Part shown: positions 31,894 to 38,537 of the stretch, one piece after another
Numbering within the stretch: the stretch's first letter is position 1
Layout of the letters: each line of letters starts with the position of its first letter
DNA from: Ignavibacterium sp.
GTDB lineage: Bacteria > Bacteroidota > Ignavibacteria > Ignavibacteriales > Ignavibacteriaceae
NCBI GenBank assembly: GCA_025056745.1
Contig: JANWVQ010000017.1
Span: 1 to 43,070 of the forward strand
Length of the DNA: 43,070 bases
Direction of reading: 5' to 3'
The notes under the pieces: generated by a model
The model's database searches: none
Told to the model about the DNA's origin: nothing
What the model saw: only the letters and a program-made list of their open reading frames with translations
Made by a program: the position numbers and the translations under genes

Positions 31894-32730
31894 TTAGTAG
31901 ATTTTTTCCATACCGTATTTTCCACAAGAATACATCATTAAAATCGAAGCTAAATCAATTAAAGCTTTTTTTTGTTCGTCAGCGTGAATTACAAGATCAT
32001 AAACCTCTGCCATAAATTGAAAATTTGTAAGAATCTTTTTAAGTTCTCTTAAGGAAGGTTCTCCGTGCCAATAAGCTACTTGTTTTACTAATAACTTTTC
32101 ATATCTTCTAAGAAAATCTTTGAATGAAATAAGATGAGTTGTATTTGCGTGTCGTGGATGACAAATTGAAATTAAATCATTAAAATACTTATCCCAATTT
32201 TTTGCAAGCTCTTTATTTCTTAGATCCATTATATAACGAACGGCATCCAAAGTAAATCTGGCTTTCGTAGTAACCTTGAATTGAGGAATGATCGCATAAC
32301 CATCAAAACTTATAGTATCAACATCTTCATCATAATATTTCCATCTTTTTAGAAGTTGATGAGGAGTCAGAATTGATATTACTTTATCCAATGAACTATC
32401 AGTAATAATAAATTTCTTTTGTTGAACATTAACTACTGTAAACCAATGTCCCCAATTATCAACACTAAGAATACAAGGGTAACCTTTTTTAATATGCTCT
32501 GTCAAAGATTTTATAGCTGTTTTTGGTTCTTCGCTTTTAAAGTATTTCATTTTGCAATCATAAAATTTAGCAGCTTTAGCAAGCCCAATTTCATCTGTAC
32601 CATACCACCAAGTACTACCAGCTTTTTGAGCAATTTTATATTCACTTTCAAATCTGCCTAACATAACTAAGGCATATTTAAGAGCAAAAGGACCACATTG
32701 ATATTTATTAGGTTGAGGATAGAAGCTCAT
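31894..32730 (-). CDS. C39-like cysteine peptidase with uncharacterised helical C-terminal domain
   Basis: 278 residues, no signal peptide or membrane helix, so probably cytoplasmic. The first 145 residues have the papain-like C39 arrangement: oxyanion Q11 and nucleophile C12 (NKYQCGPFALKYAL), H95 (DNWGHWFTVV) and D111 (FIITDSS). C39 peptidases cleave after Gly-Gly-type leaders when attached to transporters, but here no transporter is fused. Residues 150-278 are helical, with HPRH and YWHGEPSLRELKK, and match nothing I know. It is transcribed away from an ATP-grasp ligase with 73 bp between the start codons. Cleavage target is not predictable. Confidence 0.72.
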   Translation of the reverse strand: MSFYPQPNKYQCGPFALKYALVMLGRFESEYKIAQKAGSTWWYGTDEIGLAKAAKFYDCKMKYFKSEEPKTAIKSLTEHIKKGYPCILSVDNWGHWFTVVNVQQKKFIITDSSLDKVISILTPHQLLKRWKYYDEDVDTISFDGYAIIPQFKVTTKARFTLDAVRYIMDLRNKELAKNWDKYFNDLISICHPRHANTTHLISFKDFLRRYEKLLVKQVAYWHGEPSLRELKKILTNFQFMAEVYDLVIHADEQKKALIDLASILMMYSCGKYGMEKIY

Positions 32731-32803: not shown

Positions 32804-33874
32804 ATGAAAATTAAACAAAAATTAGTTGCTCTCTATTTCAATGAACCAAATCCAGAACTATACAGAAAAATAGATTTTAGTTCTGATAATCTGCATTTCG
32901 AGCCTTACTTCGAAATTGATAAATCAACTCCACTTGAAGAATATGATAAAATGGTTAATAAGTTAAAAAAATCTGGAATAGATGCTTACAGTCTAAATAT
33001 TAAGGATAACTTGAATACATTGTTGAATGATTACTTCACAAATAAACCAGATGTTGTTTTTAATTTTATAGAATTATTTCAAGAAAAAGTAGAATTAGAG
33101 TCAAATATCGTTGGTCTTTTTGAATTGCTTGATATTCCTTACACTGGTGCTCCAATGATGGCTTTGTTGAATTGTCAGAATAAATATTTATCAAAAAGAA
33201 TTCTTAGATATTATAACATTCCAACTCCAGATTTCTTTTTTGTTGATAAAAAAAATGGCAAGTTCAAAAACAATCTAAATTTTCCTCTTATTGTAAAGCC
33301 AGTTTGTGAAGATGCAAGTGTTGGAATTGACAATAATTCAATTGTTCATAATGAAAGAGAATTAAAAAAGAGATTAGAATATGTTTTTGAAAAAATAAAT
33401 CAATCTGCAATTGTTGAACAATACATAGATGGAAGGGAAGTAAATGTTTCAATATTGGGTGATAAATACCCGGTTGTTTTACCACTCAGTGAAATAGATT
33501 TTTCAGAAATGCCAGACCATCTATACGGTATTGTAAGTTATCAAGCCAAATGGGATCCATTGCACGAAGCATATCATAAGACGATTCCAATCTGTCCGGC
33601 TCAATTGCCCAAAAAGGTTGAGAAAAAAATTAAGGAAATTTCTATTTCAGCATTTAAGATTATGGGTGTGAGAGATTATGCAAGAGTTGATATTAGATTG
33701 GACAAGGCACTGAAGCCCTATGTATTGGAAGTTAATCCTAATCCAGATTTAACTGAAGATGCTGGTTTTATGCGTTCCGCAAAAGCTGCAGGATTTTCTT
33801 ATGTAAAAACTTTAAAGAAAATAATTCAATTTGCCATTGAGAGGAATAAAAAAAGGCTGCCAAAAAAATTTTAG
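32804..33874 (+). CDS. D-Ala-D-Ala-ligase-like ATP-grasp enzyme
   Basis: 356 residues. ATP-grasp carboxylate-amine ligase fold: substrate domain (about 1-115), then CQNKYLSKRILRYYNIPTPD, the ATP-binding FPLIVKPVCEDASVGID, EQYIDGREVNVSILGD, and the metal-binding ARVDIRLDKA...YVLEVNPNPDLT (Glu and Asn ligands present). It resembles Ddl but is longer and lacks the standard Ddl opening GGxSxEhevS, so it is probably not the cell-wall D-Ala-D-Ala ligase. No mur genes are near. The divergent C39-like peptidase neighbour suggests making and cutting a peptide-like product, which is inference. The stop codon lies in the loop of a hairpin terminator. Confidence 0.82.
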   Translation: MKIKQKLVALYFNEPNPELYRKIDFSSDNLHFEPYFEIDKSTPLEEYDKMVNKLKKSGIDAYSLNIKDNLNTLLNDYFTNKPDVVFNFIELFQEKVELESNIVGLFELLDIPYTGAPMMALLNCQNKYLSKRILRYYNIPTPDFFFVDKKNGKFKNNLNFPLIVKPVCEDASVGIDNNSIVHNERELKKRLEYVFEKINQSAIVEQYIDGREVNVSILGDKYPVVLPLSEIDFSEMPDHLYGIVSYQAKWDPLHEAYHKTIPICPAQLPKKVEKKIKEISISAFKIMGVRDYARVDIRLDKALKPYVLEVNPNPDLTEDAGFMRSAKAAGFSYVKTLKKIIQFAIERNKKRLPKKF

Positions 33875-33905: not shown

Positions 33906-34442
33906 TTACGTTTTCGATACTGCAGGAATTGGATTATAAATTTTTATTAACTCGTAAACACTAAACAAAAGCCCACTATACAATAAATCACCTAATACAT
34001 TATATGAGAAAAATGGTATTGCAGCTACATAACATTGAATAAGCCCATTTATATTTTGTGGATAAAACTTACTACCTAACCAAACACCAAAATTAGTTAT
34101 GATAAAAAAACTTATAGAAGATAATAGAGCAGCAATTAACACTCTATTAAAAGAAATTTGCTTCAACAAAAGAATTCCTATCCCAACTATCAAAGCAAAA
34201 CATAAGTAAACCAACCAACTTAGAGAATGAAAACCTATAATAGCATCAGTTAAAAACATAGCTGATATAGGTACTAAAAATGCATATTGTTTTTTGCTAA
34301 AATATGCACCACCAAATAAAGCAACAGCAGCTATAGGAGTAAAGTTTGGTGGATGTGGAATTAATCTTAGTAAAGAAGCAAAAAATACCATCAAAGTAAG
34401 TGTAAGAAATCCCGGTTTTATTTTTTTAACAATTTCAGTCAT
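33906..34442 (-). CDS. DUF6580-like membrane protein, possible vitamin-uptake component
   Basis: 178 residues with five to six hydrophobic helices. The segment HPPNFTPIAAVALFGGAYF and the following LVPISAMFLTDAIIGFH match the DUF6580 pattern, and the overall size and layout resemble substrate-binding S components of ECF transporters. It ends the minus-strand run that begins with the cobalamin riboswitch, so a role in cobalamin or precursor handling is plausible, but no substrate is shown by the sequence. SD AAAGGGA precedes the ATG. A 64-bp gap separates it from the CWC gene and contains a possible separate promoter. Confidence 0.75.
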   Translation of the reverse strand: MTEIVKKIKPGFLTLTLMVFFASLLRLIPHPPNFTPIAAVALFGGAYFSKKQYAFLVPISAMFLTDAIIGFHSLSWLVYLCFALIVGIGILLLKQISFNRVLIAALLSSISFFIITNFGVWLGSKFYPQNINGLIQCYVAAIPFFSYNVLGDLLYSGLLFSVYELIKIYNPIPAVSKT

Positions 34443-34506: not shown

Positions 34507-34761
34507 TTATTTGAATTTGGGTTTTATTTTTTCAAAAGATTTTAATACTCTGTTTTCATTATAAAGCTGTTTCATTTTTTTTAAACAATTAACACAAATA
34601 CAATCTTCATAAATACTCTTTATAAAATCAATTTCATTTTTTGATAATTTAACTGTAAAACATTCGCATTGAGTAATATTTCCAACTTTACACTCAAATT
34701 TAGCTCCACATCTTGGGCATTTTTTTATTTCATATTTATTAATTGATTGATCAACGTTCAT
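34507..34761 (-). CDS. Cysteine-rich CWC-type small protein
   Basis: 84 residues. The N-terminal half contains KKCPRCGAKFECKVGN and ITQCECFTVKL, matching the C-x2-C...C...C-x-C arrangement of the cysteine-rich CWC family (here CEC instead of CWC), and a further CVNC pair (DCICVNCLKKM) that could complete a second metal site. It is probably a small zinc- or metal-binding cytoplasmic protein. Function unknown. It overlaps the upstream 61-residue ORF by 11 bp and belongs to the B12-riboswitch run. Confidence 0.72.
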   Translation of the reverse strand: MNVDQSINKYEIKKCPRCGAKFECKVGNITQCECFTVKLSKNEIDFIKSIYEDCICVNCLKKMKQLYNENRVLKSFEKIKPKFK

Positions 34762-34936
34762 ACAAAAAATACATTTTTGTGCGATTGATTGCCTCTTCTA
34801 TTCCATATTTGAATTTAATAGCTGAAAATATTCTTAGAAATTCTTCTTGTTTGATTTCTTTTCCACCTAATAAAAATTTGCCATCTTTATAAATGATGTT
34901 ATGCTTTTTACAGTTTTTTATTATGTCTTTTAACAT
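34751..34936 (-). CDS. Very small hypothetical protein in the cobalamin locus
   Basis: 61 residues, family not recognised. Sequence is basic and probably folded: a helix (LKDIIKNCKKHN), a beta hairpin (IIYKDGKFLLGGKEI) and two helices (QEEFLRIFSAIKFKYG; EEAINRTKMYFLYER). It starts 6 bp after the propeller gene and its end overlaps the CWC gene by 11 bp, spacing that argues for a real gene. Confidence 0.6.
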   Translation of the reverse strand: MLKDIIKNCKKHNIIYKDGKFLLGGKEIKQEEFLRIFSAIKFKYGIEEAINRTKMYFLYER

Positions 34937-34942
34937 TTTTAT

Positions 34943-36304
34943 TCACTTTCTTATTATCATCTTCTTTACTTGGCTTTCAGAACCAATTGTTAATCTATAG
35001 AAATAAATACCACTTGCTAAAGTATTTAGTTTGGAACTCAATGAATTATTGTCATTAACATAAAAATCTATCTCGTGATAGCCTGCTGGTTTGTAATCAT
35101 CGAGTAAAGTTGCAACTTCATTTCCAAGAATATCATAAATTTTCAATGTTGTATGTCCAGATAAGGAAGAATTCCAGCTAATTTTTGTACTCGACCCTGA
35201 ACTTTCACTAATTATGAATGGGTTGGGATAATTTTGATTTAGTGTAAAATTATCACTGATTAATTTCTCTTCATAATTCGATGATGGATTTACATACTTA
35301 AATAAAACTCTTCTTGGTGCGACACTTGTTTGAAATGTATTTAACACAGTTCCTGTTGAATCTGTAATTATTAAAGTTCCATTGACTGTAAAATTTTTTG
35401 CATCAAGAATGTAGTGCCTTTTATTTATGTAATCGTAAGCATAGCCGTAGTAAAAATTATTTGGAAATGTAGATGTAAAAATTGATGTCACGGTTCTGTT
35501 TAATAGATCTAATGAGACAATATTATTTGTATTAGAAATGAAGAAAATTTTATTTGAACGTCTATCAACTGAAATATCTTTATCAAATCCATAAACTGGC
35601 ACTCTGAAAGAATCAACTATCTGATAGTTATTAATATTTACTTTATATATGATTCCCTTTGATGCATCGCCTGGACAGCCTATAAGTAAATGATTATCAT
35701 TTGTTATTGCTAAAGAAGACGGATCTTTTTTTACAATTATTTTAAAGACAACAGAATCGGTATTTGCATCAATGACACTAACAGTAGAATCCGAGTTTCC
35801 ACCAAATAAACTATTATTCGCAACGAATATTTTATTACCTACAGCGAGAATTTCTTGTGGATATACTCCTACATTAATATTACGTATAAAACTAAGATTG
35901 TTTAAGTTTAGTACTGTAACTTTTGAGGCAGGTCCATTAGTGATATAGATTTTATTATTTGCAATAGCAAGCGAGTATGGATTTATTCCTGCTGTGGCTG
36001 AACTGATCACTGTGCCTAATGTATCAAGTCTATAAATCTTACCATTACTTCCATAATTACCTTGCTCTGTTACGAAAAGATTATCTTGATGTAAAATAAT
36101 ACCATCAGGATATAAGCCCAGATTACCGGGGTTAAAAATGTTTGGTGTAAAAGTGTTGTTAATGTTATTAAAAAGCGACAGAGCAGAGGTATTTGGTGAA
36201 AATCCTCCTTCTGAAAGTATATAAACTTTTGAAAGAATTTGTGAAAAAGAAATATTAAATGCTATAGCCCAAAAAACGGCAATAAAAAAGAAAAATTTTT
36301 TCAT
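34943..36304 (-). CDS. T9SS-exported beta-propeller surface protein, candidate BtuG-like cobalamin-binding protein
   Basis: 453 residues. Signal peptide 1-22 (ending ISFSQ). Residues 25-340 are YncE/NHL-type propeller repeats, for example NPYSLAIANNKIYITNG, YPQEILAVGNKIFVANN and DPSSLAITNDNHLLIGC, enough for about seven blades. The last 95 residues are a type A T9SS sorting domain: LNQNYPNPF, LKIYDILGNEVATLLD, LASGIYFYRL and the terminal KKMIIRK. It follows the BtuB-like receptor by 11 bp under the same riboswitch. In Bacteroides the B12-binding surface propeller BtuG is a lipoprotein next to BtuB; here the export signal would be T9SS. B12 binding is inferred from context and fold. Confidence 0.8.
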   Translation of the reverse strand: MKKFFFFIAVFWAIAFNISFSQILSKVYILSEGGFSPNTSALSLFNNINNTFTPNIFNPGNLGLYPDGIILHQDNLFVTEQGNYGSNGKIYRLDTLGTVISSATAGINPYSLAIANNKIYITNGPASKVTVLNLNNLSFIRNINVGVYPQEILAVGNKIFVANNSLFGGNSDSTVSVIDANTDSVVFKIIVKKDPSSLAITNDNHLLIGCPGDASKGIIYKVNINNYQIVDSFRVPVYGFDKDISVDRRSNKIFFISNTNNIVSLDLLNRTVTSIFTSTFPNNFYYGYAYDYINKRHYILDAKNFTVNGTLIITDSTGTVLNTFQTSVAPRRVLFKYVNPSSNYEEKLISDNFTLNQNYPNPFIISESSGSSTKISWNSSLSGHTTLKIYDILGNEVATLLDDYKPAGYHEIDFYVNDNNSLSSKLNTLASGIYFYRLTIGSESQVKKMIIRK

Positions 36305-36315
36305 ATTTACTCCTT

Positions 36316-38250
36316 TTAATTATTGAATAATAAAGTTAGTTTATAGTTTCTGAGAGGCATTGGATATCCCGATATTATTTGATAATCAAAGTTTAATAGA
36401 TTATTTACTTCAAACTTGAATTTCAGCTCTATATCGAAAAGGTTTAAATCAAAAATTATATTCCCATCAATTAAGTTTATGGGATTTACAGGCTTCAAGT
36501 TTTCAAAATCTGAGAATCTTTTATAATTATGAGAGTAAAACAAATTCAATGTTATTAAATCATATTTGAAAGAAAGGTTGGATTTAAACGAATGTTTTGG
36601 TAAATGAGGAAATTGCTTACCTTTTGTTGGATCATTTGTAAAATCTTCGCTTGTTTTTATTGAGTTAATCATATTATAACCAATATCAAAATCTAAATTT
36701 ATTTTGTCATCAATTTTTTTCTGAATTGATAATGTTATCAAAAAATTTTCTGAAGTTGATGATGCAATATTTACGGGCTTCCAAATGAAATTTCTTGCAG
36801 GGAGCCAAACAATTTTATTATCAGCTTTTATATGAGTATATGTAATGTCAAATGAAATATCGAATAGGTAATTGAATTTGTAAAGAATACCTAATTCTTT
36901 ATTAACAGATTTTTCAGGTAGTAAATTTTTGTTTCCCGCTTCTTTCCAATATAAGTCATTAAAAGTTGGTGCTCTGAAATTATTTCCAATGTTACTTCTT
37001 AATCTAAGATCATTATCATCAAATGGTTTTATATTTACACCGAACTTAAAAGTCAAAACATTTTTCTCGATATCTGAAATAAAATCATACCTAATAGATG
37101 GAAATAAACTTATTTGAGTGATTGGATTTAGGTTTCCACTAATATAAAACGCGTGTAATTCTCTTAACGCTTTAGACTCAATCTGATTACTTGACAATGT
37201 TGCAAATGAGTAATTGTATCCAACAGTGCTTGAAAACTTTTCTTCAACTAGTGTTAAATTCTGTGATAATGAAAGAACAATGTTTTTATAATAACTATTA
37301 ACATTTGGCTTTAGCCTATAATTCATCAAGTTATTTTGAAAGTTAAATGAAGTATTCGATGTGAGCTTTTTGCTAATCTTATTTTCAAGTGATATTAAAT
37401 TATTCCAATTCCTATCTCTCTGATCTGAGTCTGTGGGAGGAGTTCCAATTTCTATTCCGGGAATTCTTTTAAAGTGGTTTATAAAACTAGAATTAATCTT
37501 AATTAAATTGTAATCATTAAAAAAATATTCACTTATAAAACCAATATCATAAAATTCGTGATTTGCATTTTGCCTTTGTTTTTTTATTCTTTGATTACCT
37601 GAATGAAAATAGTAATCATAATCACCATCAGATTTCTCCCGAGTAAGATAGAATTTAGAACTAATTGATTTTATTTGATTAGATAATGCAAAATGATATC
37701 TAAATGTATTATAAGATCCATAAGAAACTGAACCATTGAATCCAAAGGGTAGTGGATAATTGGATTTGTAACTACTTTTTGTTATTAAATTAATTACACC
37801 GCTTATTGCATCACTTCCATAAACAGAACTTAAACCGTTATTAATAATCTCTATTCGTTCTATATTTTCGATAGGTATTAATGATAAATCAACAGTTGAA
37901 TTTTGATAGGAATTTAACTTTACACCATCAATAAGAATTAGAGAATGTTCAGAGCCTAAACCATTAATTGATATTGTTTGTAAAGAAGAGACATTTCCGT
38001 AAGATTTTATAAAAGTCAAAGGCGAGGTTTTTAACTTATCTGATAAAGAAAAGCCATTAGTGTTTTTTAATTTTTCAATATCTAAAATTTCTACCTTTGT
38101 GAATAAGTCGGAGGTTTTAGTTTTTATTCTATTTGCAACAACAGTAACTTCATCCAAAGAATAAAATTTTACTGAGTCTGTTACTTGAGAGAATGTTAAC
38201 AGACTTAATAAATAGAAGTTTATTAAAAACTTACTAATAAAATTTAACAA
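36316..38250 (-). CDS. btuB: TonB-dependent outer-membrane receptor, BtuB-like
   Basis: 644 residues, 22-stranded receptor size. Signal peptide ending LLTFSQ, TonB-box-like DEVTVVANR, plug domain with TISINGLGSEHSLILIDGVK and IERIEIINNGLSSVYGSDA, GVINLITK, then barrel strands. The cobalamin riboswitch directly upstream makes vitamin B12 the likely substrate; the assignment to BtuB rests on that and on receptor size. The start is TTG at 38250 with AGGAG 7 nt upstream; the leader hairpin described below covers this ribosome site. No BtuCDF transporter is in the window. Confidence 0.86.
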   Translation of the reverse strand: MLNFISKFLINFYLLSLLTFSQVTDSVKFYSLDEVTVVANRIKTKTSDLFTKVEILDIEKLKNTNGFSLSDKLKTSPLTFIKSYGNVSSLQTISINGLGSEHSLILIDGVKLNSYQNSTVDLSLIPIENIERIEIINNGLSSVYGSDAISGVINLITKSSYKSNYPLPFGFNGSVSYGSYNTFRYHFALSNQIKSISSKFYLTREKSDGDYDYYFHSGNQRIKKQRQNANHEFYDIGFISEYFFNDYNLIKINSSFINHFKRIPGIEIGTPPTDSDQRDRNWNNLISLENKISKKLTSNTSFNFQNNLMNYRLKPNVNSYYKNIVLSLSQNLTLVEEKFSSTVGYNYSFATLSSNQIESKALRELHAFYISGNLNPITQISLFPSIRYDFISDIEKNVLTFKFGVNIKPFDDNDLRLRSNIGNNFRAPTFNDLYWKEAGNKNLLPEKSVNKELGILYKFNYLFDISFDITYTHIKADNKIVWLPARNFIWKPVNIASSTSENFLITLSIQKKIDDKINLDFDIGYNMINSIKTSEDFTNDPTKGKQFPHLPKHSFKSNLSFKYDLITLNLFYSHNYKRFSDFENLKPVNPINLIDGNIIFDLNLFDIELKFKFEVNNLLNFDYQIISGYPMPLRNYKLTLLFNN

Positions 38251-38329: not shown

Positions 38330-38537
38330 TTAATCAAACCTTTGACGCGAAGGTTGATTAAAAAGATTTTTACAGCAGGTCTCCTGGCTTATTGAAGTTG
38401 CGAAATACAACTTCAAATCACAGTTGCGCGACAGCGTCGGATTTTCACCGAACTTCCCTATAATTTCCCTTGTCCATTTACTGAGTTTTCTATTTTACAA
38501 TCAAACGTCAATAAGTGGATGGGAACACTGTAAAAAT
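38330..38537 (-). ncRNA. Cobalamin riboswitch
   Basis: Read on the minus strand. The B12 box AGCCAGGAGACCTGCTGT lies at 38389-38372. The core GGGAAGTTCGGTGAAAATCC and the following GCGCAACTGT match the conserved aptamer core. A 10-bp P1 stem pairs ATTTTTACAG (38537-38528) with CTGTAAAAAT (38375-38366). A further hairpin at 38361-38330, TTAATCAACCTT with AAAGGTTTGATTAA, has loop CGCGTCA; its GCGTC can pair with GACGC in the aptamer (the L5-L13 kissing contact known for this class). This accounts for most of the gap between btuB and sdhC. It should switch off the btuB run when cobalamin is plentiful. Confidence 0.95.

Follow-up and report, generated by a model that had tools for sequence, protein, structure and literature searches.

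This analysis concerns a 43,070-nucleotide stretch of DNA from Ignavibacterium sp. (GCA_025056745.1, contig JANWVQ010000017.1, positions 1-43,070), referred to below as the window, and in particular a BtuG-type propeller in it that carries a sorting tail of the type IX secretion system (T9SS). The features of the locus between 33906 and 38497 lie on the minus strand. A cobalamin riboswitch at 38357-38497 (RF00174, a full-length covariance-model match that scores 56.7 bits; gathering score 31.5) is the sole one detected in the genome. Downstream of it are a TonB-dependent receptor of 644 residues with a TTG start and with plug and barrel domains (36316-38250) and, after a gap of 11 bases, the open reading frame (ORF) of the 453-residue propeller protein, which starts with ATG (34943-36304). 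The latter comprises an N-terminal signal peptide, read from the sequence, that has no lipobox cysteine (residues 1-22; 36239-36304), a seven-bladed propeller (residues ~24-337; 35294-36235, from the strands at positions 2-315 of 323 residues modelled with AlphaFold2) and a T9SS type A sorting domain (34949-35230; PF18962 at residues 359-451, and TIGR04183 with 38.5 bits in the genome search). A sequence-only reading of 34943-38250 had named the receptor, the 11-bp gap, the propeller, an ordinary signal peptide, the type A tail and a B12 riboswitch, all of which are present; the interval itself excludes the riboswitch and three downstream ORFs on the same strand, which encode a 61-residue product, a cysteine-rich CWC protein and a DUF6580 membrane protein.

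The best relative of the receptor among solved structures is BtuB1 of Bacteroides thetaiotaomicron (8blw_A, E 6e-38). Its score against the BtuB equivalog TIGR01779 is 158.5 bits, far below the cut-off of 599.7. Since BtuB1 is the best structural match but the equivalog score falls under its cut-off, the receptor is called BtuB-like throughout.

Fold and homology of the propeller

At the domain level, the propeller matches DUF5074 (28.3 bits, barely above the cut-off of 27.2) and beta_rpt_yvtn (40.7 bits; cut-off 27.85). An AlphaFold2 model of residues 23-345, built with 39 relatives, contains 28 strands and reaches a mean predicted local distance difference test score (pLDDT) of 92.3 and a predicted template modelling score (pTM) of 0.91, in agreement with the seven blades that the sequence-only reading had expected. 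In Foldseek, the 16 top PDB chains are all BtuG1, BtuG2, BtuG3 or the Bacteroides uniformis homologue 3dsm, with E-values from 1.8e-19 to 1.2e-16 and template modelling scores by query of 0.80-0.84. The 11 top entries of VIA-align come from the same set (Z 36.8-33.2). A family profile, made from the window propeller and its 39 relatives, was also searched against PDB sequences. Twelve sequences came first, at 177.8-180.7 bits (E 3.7e-52 to 2.9e-51); ten of these are titled BtuG or BtuG homologue. The remaining pair consists of 8puj, whose alignment is exactly that of BtuG3, and 8baz, which bears just the label 'surface layer protein'. Next was the archaeal YVTN propeller 1l0q at 164.8 bits (E 2.5e-47), below which no sequence exceeded 65 bits. 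From the fold and the family profile, we take the window propeller to be a BtuG homologue.

Several observations weigh against this identity or against the role in B12 uptake that it suggests. VIA-align scores 1l0q (Z 32.8) and 6-phosphogluconolactonase (Z 32.1) near the BtuG values; because these score almost equally high, the fold alone is not decisive. Identity to the BtuG structures is merely 15-22%, and a search with the single sequence is weak, placing 1l0q (E 4.8e-7) ahead of BtuG1 (E 1.8e-4). The window propeller has a net charge of +3, as opposed to a median of -14.5 for the other T9SS homologues, and passages of PMC10404256 describe the B12 face of BtuG2 as negatively charged. Finally, same-family relatives, one of them from the same genus, have the riboswitch, btuB and DUF6580 yet no BtuG at that place. 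Binding of B12 by the window propeller is something that we infer.

The protein resembles BtuG1, BtuG2 and BtuG3 of B. thetaiotaomicron in its seven-bladed propeller and in that its gene adjoins btuB at a locus under a B12 riboswitch. It differs in its means of attachment: according to sections of PMC6143338, BtuG sits on the surface as a lipoprotein and carries a lipobox cysteine and an export signal, whereas the window protein has no N-terminal cysteine. Instead, its propeller begins a few residues after the signal peptide and is followed by the T9SS tail. On account of the absent cysteine and the tail, it is classed here as a homologue of BtuG with a different type of anchoring. The view that a BtuG equivalent with another anchoring route is paired here with a BtuB-like receptor under a B12 riboswitch is supported: the fold is that of BtuG, and relatives lie behind B12 riboswitches, as described below. 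The sequence-only reading had also raised the prospect that the same solution had arisen a second time. This is ruled out by the profile match to BtuG and by lipoprotein-type homologues that are 44-52% identical to the window propeller; the protein is homologous to Bacteroides BtuG, and 69 of 99 classifiable homologues are of the lipoprotein type.

Anchor types among BtuG homologues

The sorting tail of the window protein (residues 359-452) matches Por_Secre_tail (PF18962) with 30.8 bits (cut-off 27) and TIGR04183 with 34 bits (cut-off 23). In these features it resembles T9SS type A cargo, which is recognized by a signal peptide and a C-terminal TIGR04183/PF18962 domain. The host has the T9SS translocon and sortase: matches to SprA (808.4 bits, or 997.4 with the neighbour in frame) and PorU (971.6 bits) were found, and the genome holds 88 type A sorting tails above cut-off.

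Anchor types were compared among 101 distinct propellers, with signal peptides and lipoboxes assigned by pattern and by reading, without a dedicated program. Fragments at loci L103 and L104 and nine exact duplicates were left out. So were second propeller-like ORFs in L155 and L156 (54 and 58 bits) and weak second copies in L040, L050, L054 and L057. The former (L155, 5602-7287; L156, 5235-6920) are weakly propeller-like, lie in a 562-residue frame with a T9SS tail and stand directly downstream of a lipoprotein BtuG; the latter, all in family f14, are divergent lipoprotein-type propellers about 6-7.5 kb downstream of btuB that score 102-145 bits with the BtuG-family profile. Two rows, L043 (cut by the contig) and L078 (whose ORF stops before any tail), were unclassified, leaving 99. 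Against the flag set by the script, L080 was assigned to the T9SS type and L157, judged by eye, to the lipoprotein type; later full-length checks agreed with both.

On this basis, 69 propellers are of the lipoprotein type and 30 of the T9SS type, and none bears both marks. The N-terminal cysteine is an invariant column in the 69-row alignment of full-length lipoprotein-type proteins, and YPNPF is an invariant motif in the corresponding 30-row T9SS alignment. TIGR04183 matches all 30 T9SS rows. Between them, the 69 lipoprotein-type rows match 18 families at E 0.01, and TIGR04183 is not one of these. The tails vary in passing cut-offs; that of L150, for example, reaches just 20.8 bits with PF18962, below 27. 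A motif count tried in place of contact mapping was weak and went unused (xEG in 20 of 30 T9SS and 62 of 69 lipoprotein rows; a second motif in 19 of 30 and 36 of 69).

The two types also differ in where spacer sequence is found. In the lipoprotein forms, the median distance from the cysteine to the propeller is 18 residues (15-52, n=68) and the median length after the propeller is 2 residues, although in L162 a lipoprotein-type BtuG has a 293-residue extension. In the T9SS forms, the median length before the propeller is 5 residues (0-8) and that between the propeller and the sorting motif 23 (22-26, n=29). The tether appears to have moved between the N-terminus, with its lipid, and the C-terminus, with its T9SS domain.

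How often this occurred was assessed on two sub-samples of the 101 rows, a carefully built tree of 44 rows and one of 37, and on a quick tree of all 101. The quick tree needs 6 anchor-state changes when unclassified rows are omitted; the 101-row table gives 7, with 5 forced by starred branches, if L078 is counted as non-T9SS, and 4 forced changes is the safer figure. The 44-row tree needs 5 changes, of which 3 are forced. A single clade of all T9SS rows (17 of the 44) is rejected by the approximately unbiased (AU) test (p 7.4e-7), and the anchor therefore changed more than once. This tree likewise rejects a single clade for its T9SS rows from outside Ignavibacteria, 11 in number (p 2.9e-5), a group that was named after a first tree had been seen. 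Two T9SS origins within Ignavibacteria are not supported, as one clade of 16 of the 37 rows is not rejected (p 0.296). Change counts carry no direction and do not distinguish gain from loss. On these trees, what has arisen repeatedly is the anchor switch, not the propeller. Outside Ignavibacteria, T9SS forms are found in families f35, f36, f37, f47 and f48 (14 loci, with btuB upstream in all 14). One operon, L099 (6932-10202), encodes in order btuB, a T9SS-BtuG, a btuR-like gene, a BFD-type ferredoxin and a lipoprotein-BtuG; since both forms share this operon, duplication followed by loss of one copy may be one route of switching.

Linkage to btuB and the cobalamin riboswitch

In a class-wide scan of 149 genomes, the propeller was matched in 97 (at E 0.001) and a cobalamin riboswitch in 136; among the 97, many of the weaker matches are probably paralogues. 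Forty loci were fetched, one per genome from 40 of the 97 genomes, all among the higher-scoring matches. The scan gave 33 loci with names: 27 in Ignavibacteri-, one Melioribacteraceae, four 'Bacteroidetes bacterium' and one 'Bacterium BMS3Abin04'. A same-strand riboswitch lies 112-3197 bases upstream in 35 of the 40 loci, as would be expected if the sequence-only reading was right to place the propeller in a B12-regulated operon. The other five are cut short, with only 3 to 1747 bases of contig left ahead of the gene; three of these genomes have a riboswitch on another contig, and the search found none in the other two (G116 and G060). The riboswitch is present in 10 of 10 scanned T9SS-type loci from Ignavibacteria and in all 10 of the loci scanned among the 14 T9SS-type loci from other families. 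Two arrangements occur: riboswitch-btuB-btuG and, for the most part in family f14, riboswitch-btuG-btuB. In 30 of 31 T9SS rows btuB is directly upstream (gap -4 to 154 bases), and in the 31st, cut by a contig end, the end of btuB is still visible. Identities of receptors and propellers are correlated (r 0.73, 90 pairs, 0 of 1000 permutations), to which shared species history contributes. At L141 (6242-6466), the T9SS-BtuG gene is closely followed by two Acido-Lenti-1 RNA matches, one on each strand.

These patterns bear on what the propeller does. The breadth of the propeller superfamily and the weak single-sequence scores would fit a generic YncE/lactonase-type protein that neighbours btuB by chance and has no role in B12 uptake, yet recurrent linkage and correlated divergence speak against such an account, and the btuB and riboswitch linkage in many families led to its rejection; it is the least probable of the explanations weighed here. 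Alternatively, the propeller might cover a TonB receptor that takes up something other than B12, for instance a siderophore, and be regulated by B12 only by coincidence. The fold is generic, and siderophore-binding propeller lids exist: XusB, described in excerpts of PMC13142918, is likewise encoded with its own TonB receptor, although it is a DUF4374-annotated lipoprotein that binds siderophores. However, the top matches of the window protein are BtuG and not XusB, the riboswitch linkage extends across many families, and sister operons contain BtuR: a BtuR/CobO-like gene, recognized by eye, follows btuB, or the first btuG in L099, in nine lipoprotein-type or mixed loci, and the one tested against Pfam matched PF02572 (155.9 bits). 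A lid for some other ligand is accordingly very improbable.

A third alternative accepts B12 binding and differs in the fate of the protein. T9SS type A cargo may be anchored or released, and a released propeller would act as a free scavenger rather than as a lid held by the receptor. The coexistence of T9SS and lipoprotein copies in L099, as if they had differing jobs, would suit this idea. Set against it are the position of btuB directly upstream in nearly all T9SS loci and the joint divergence of receptor and propeller, both of which favour a physical receptor-propeller pair. We regard release as unlikely.

In the window's own family, f1, the distribution is uneven. Among nine genomes, three have the T9SS form (G000, G119 and G314) and two the lipoprotein (G140 and G288), and in the other four (G125, G130, G135 and the same-genus G331) no BtuG was found in the riboswitch operon. 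These four have weaker propeller matches elsewhere in the genome (best E 8e-17 to 2e-4). In G331, the equivalent site (L182, 3922-6622) has the riboswitch, a btuB only 25% identical to that of the window and a DUF6580 gene whose product is 59% identical. It is recognized by this DUF6580 and by genes that, judged by eye, correspond to those at 31894-32730 and 32804-33874 in the window; the propeller, the CWC protein and the 61-residue ORF have no match there. Because such same-family operons do without BtuG, the protein appears dispensable. The receptors of the four BtuG-free operons form one starred clade (FastTree), and it looks as if receptor and BtuG had been swapped as a unit for a BtuG-free receptor at one site. 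A more far-reaching proposal, which we consider doubtful, is that BtuG is a module in which the anchor, a lipid at the N-terminus or T9SS at the C-terminus, can be swapped freely, that cassettes of receptor plus BtuG take the place of BtuG-free receptors at a single chromosomal site and that some T9SS lineages shed BtuG as a diffusible scavenger to be shared, not as a private lid.

DUF6580 and a model for vitamin B12 uptake

Downstream of the propeller gene, the 61-residue ORF (34751-34936), whose counterparts in L032, L072, L073 and L082 are 44-45% identical, overlaps the start of the gene for the 84-residue CWC protein (34507-34761; PF14375, 53.9 bits). The DUF6580 membrane protein follows (33906-34442; PF20221, 196.3 bits). 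Its predicted structure (pLDDT 88.0) resembles the S-components of energy-coupling factor (ECF) transporters: the 21 top VIA-align entries are ECF S-components or metal-transport counterparts, led by BtuM with bound cobalamin (Z 13.8), which is tied with FolT (13.7); helical bundles can attain such values by arrangement alone. The best S-component match in Foldseek reaches merely E 0.065. Compared by sequence at up to E 1, the protein matched none of the solved structures; it has no NCBIfam name, and no paper on DUF6580 was found in the openly licensed PMC literature. Support that does not depend on the fold comes from L052 (11747-12229) and L058 (10997-11500), where DUF6580 has a second, separate cobalamin riboswitch immediately before it, the two lying ahead of the riboswitch of btuB; this argues for a B12-related role. 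DUF6580 also recurs more widely in operons governed by B12 riboswitches.

The genome, which is rated 99.83% complete, gave no match to a FecCD permease, the BtuC family (controls positive 13 of 14), or to CbiQ/EcfT (controls positive 10 of 14). Given the S-component-like predicted fold and the lack of matches to the BtuC and EcfT families, DUF6580 is a candidate inner-membrane B12 importer. It is comparable to BtuM, the solitary B12 S-component of Thiobacillus denitrificans, in its predicted fold, in the location of its gene in a B12 operon with btuB and in the lack of a CbiQ/EcfT match in the genome. The BtuM family has an invariant, cobalt-ligating cysteine, according to portions of PMC6072759, whereas 20 DUF6580 homologues show no invariant or near-invariant cysteine; among these, His30 is invariant. 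The genome also encodes five B12-binding domains, and no CbiC was found in it (controls positive 7 of 14). Such a gene content fits an organism that uses B12 and has to take it up, with the reservation that a single marker family is no proof of auxotrophy.

The computed evidence, namely homology, fold, riboswitch, gene order, correlated divergence, the lack of a lipobox, the sorting tail and the host T9SS genes, makes it probable that the locus is a B12 uptake operon in which a T9SS-exported BtuG-type propeller captures corrinoid and hands it to the BtuB-like receptor. When B12 is scarce, the riboswitch would permit expression of the operon, and receptor and propeller would be co-produced. The propeller would cross the inner membrane via Sec and the outer membrane via T9SS, bind corrinoid at the surface and, as a lid, pass it to the receptor, being held (or released) through its C-terminal sorting domain. 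DUF6580 would then probably carry B12 over the inner membrane.

Previous descriptions of BtuG concern the lipid-anchored form. In the sections of PMC6143338 available, Wexler et al. saw BtuG in Bacteroidetes only among 313 human gut genomes, and nearly all homologues were predicted to be surface lipoproteins from their cysteine; parts of PMC10404256 describe BtuG as a lid that covers BtuB and is anchored by a lipid. For F. psychrophilum, a TonB receptor preceded by a cobalamin riboswitch has been reported. In the openly licensed PMC literature, with most subscription papers outside the search, no report of a T9SS-exported BtuG was found, nor of a B12-uptake protein among T9SS type A cargo; the available portions of PMC13398666, PMC8941943 and PMC11109136 contain nothing on T9SS export of BtuG.

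These findings extend BtuG homologues through metagenome-assembled genomes of Ignavibacteria and further families of the phylum, with 30 of 99 using another export machine, and predict a T9SS cargo that serves vitamin uptake. DUF6580, in turn, is a possible B12 importer for bacteria that lack BtuCD. The two anchor types also amount to a natural experiment, in which propeller, receptor type and regulation are alike and the tether is at the opposite end. Such a comparison could discriminate between a hinged lid, for which the tied end should matter, and a capture device, for which it should not.

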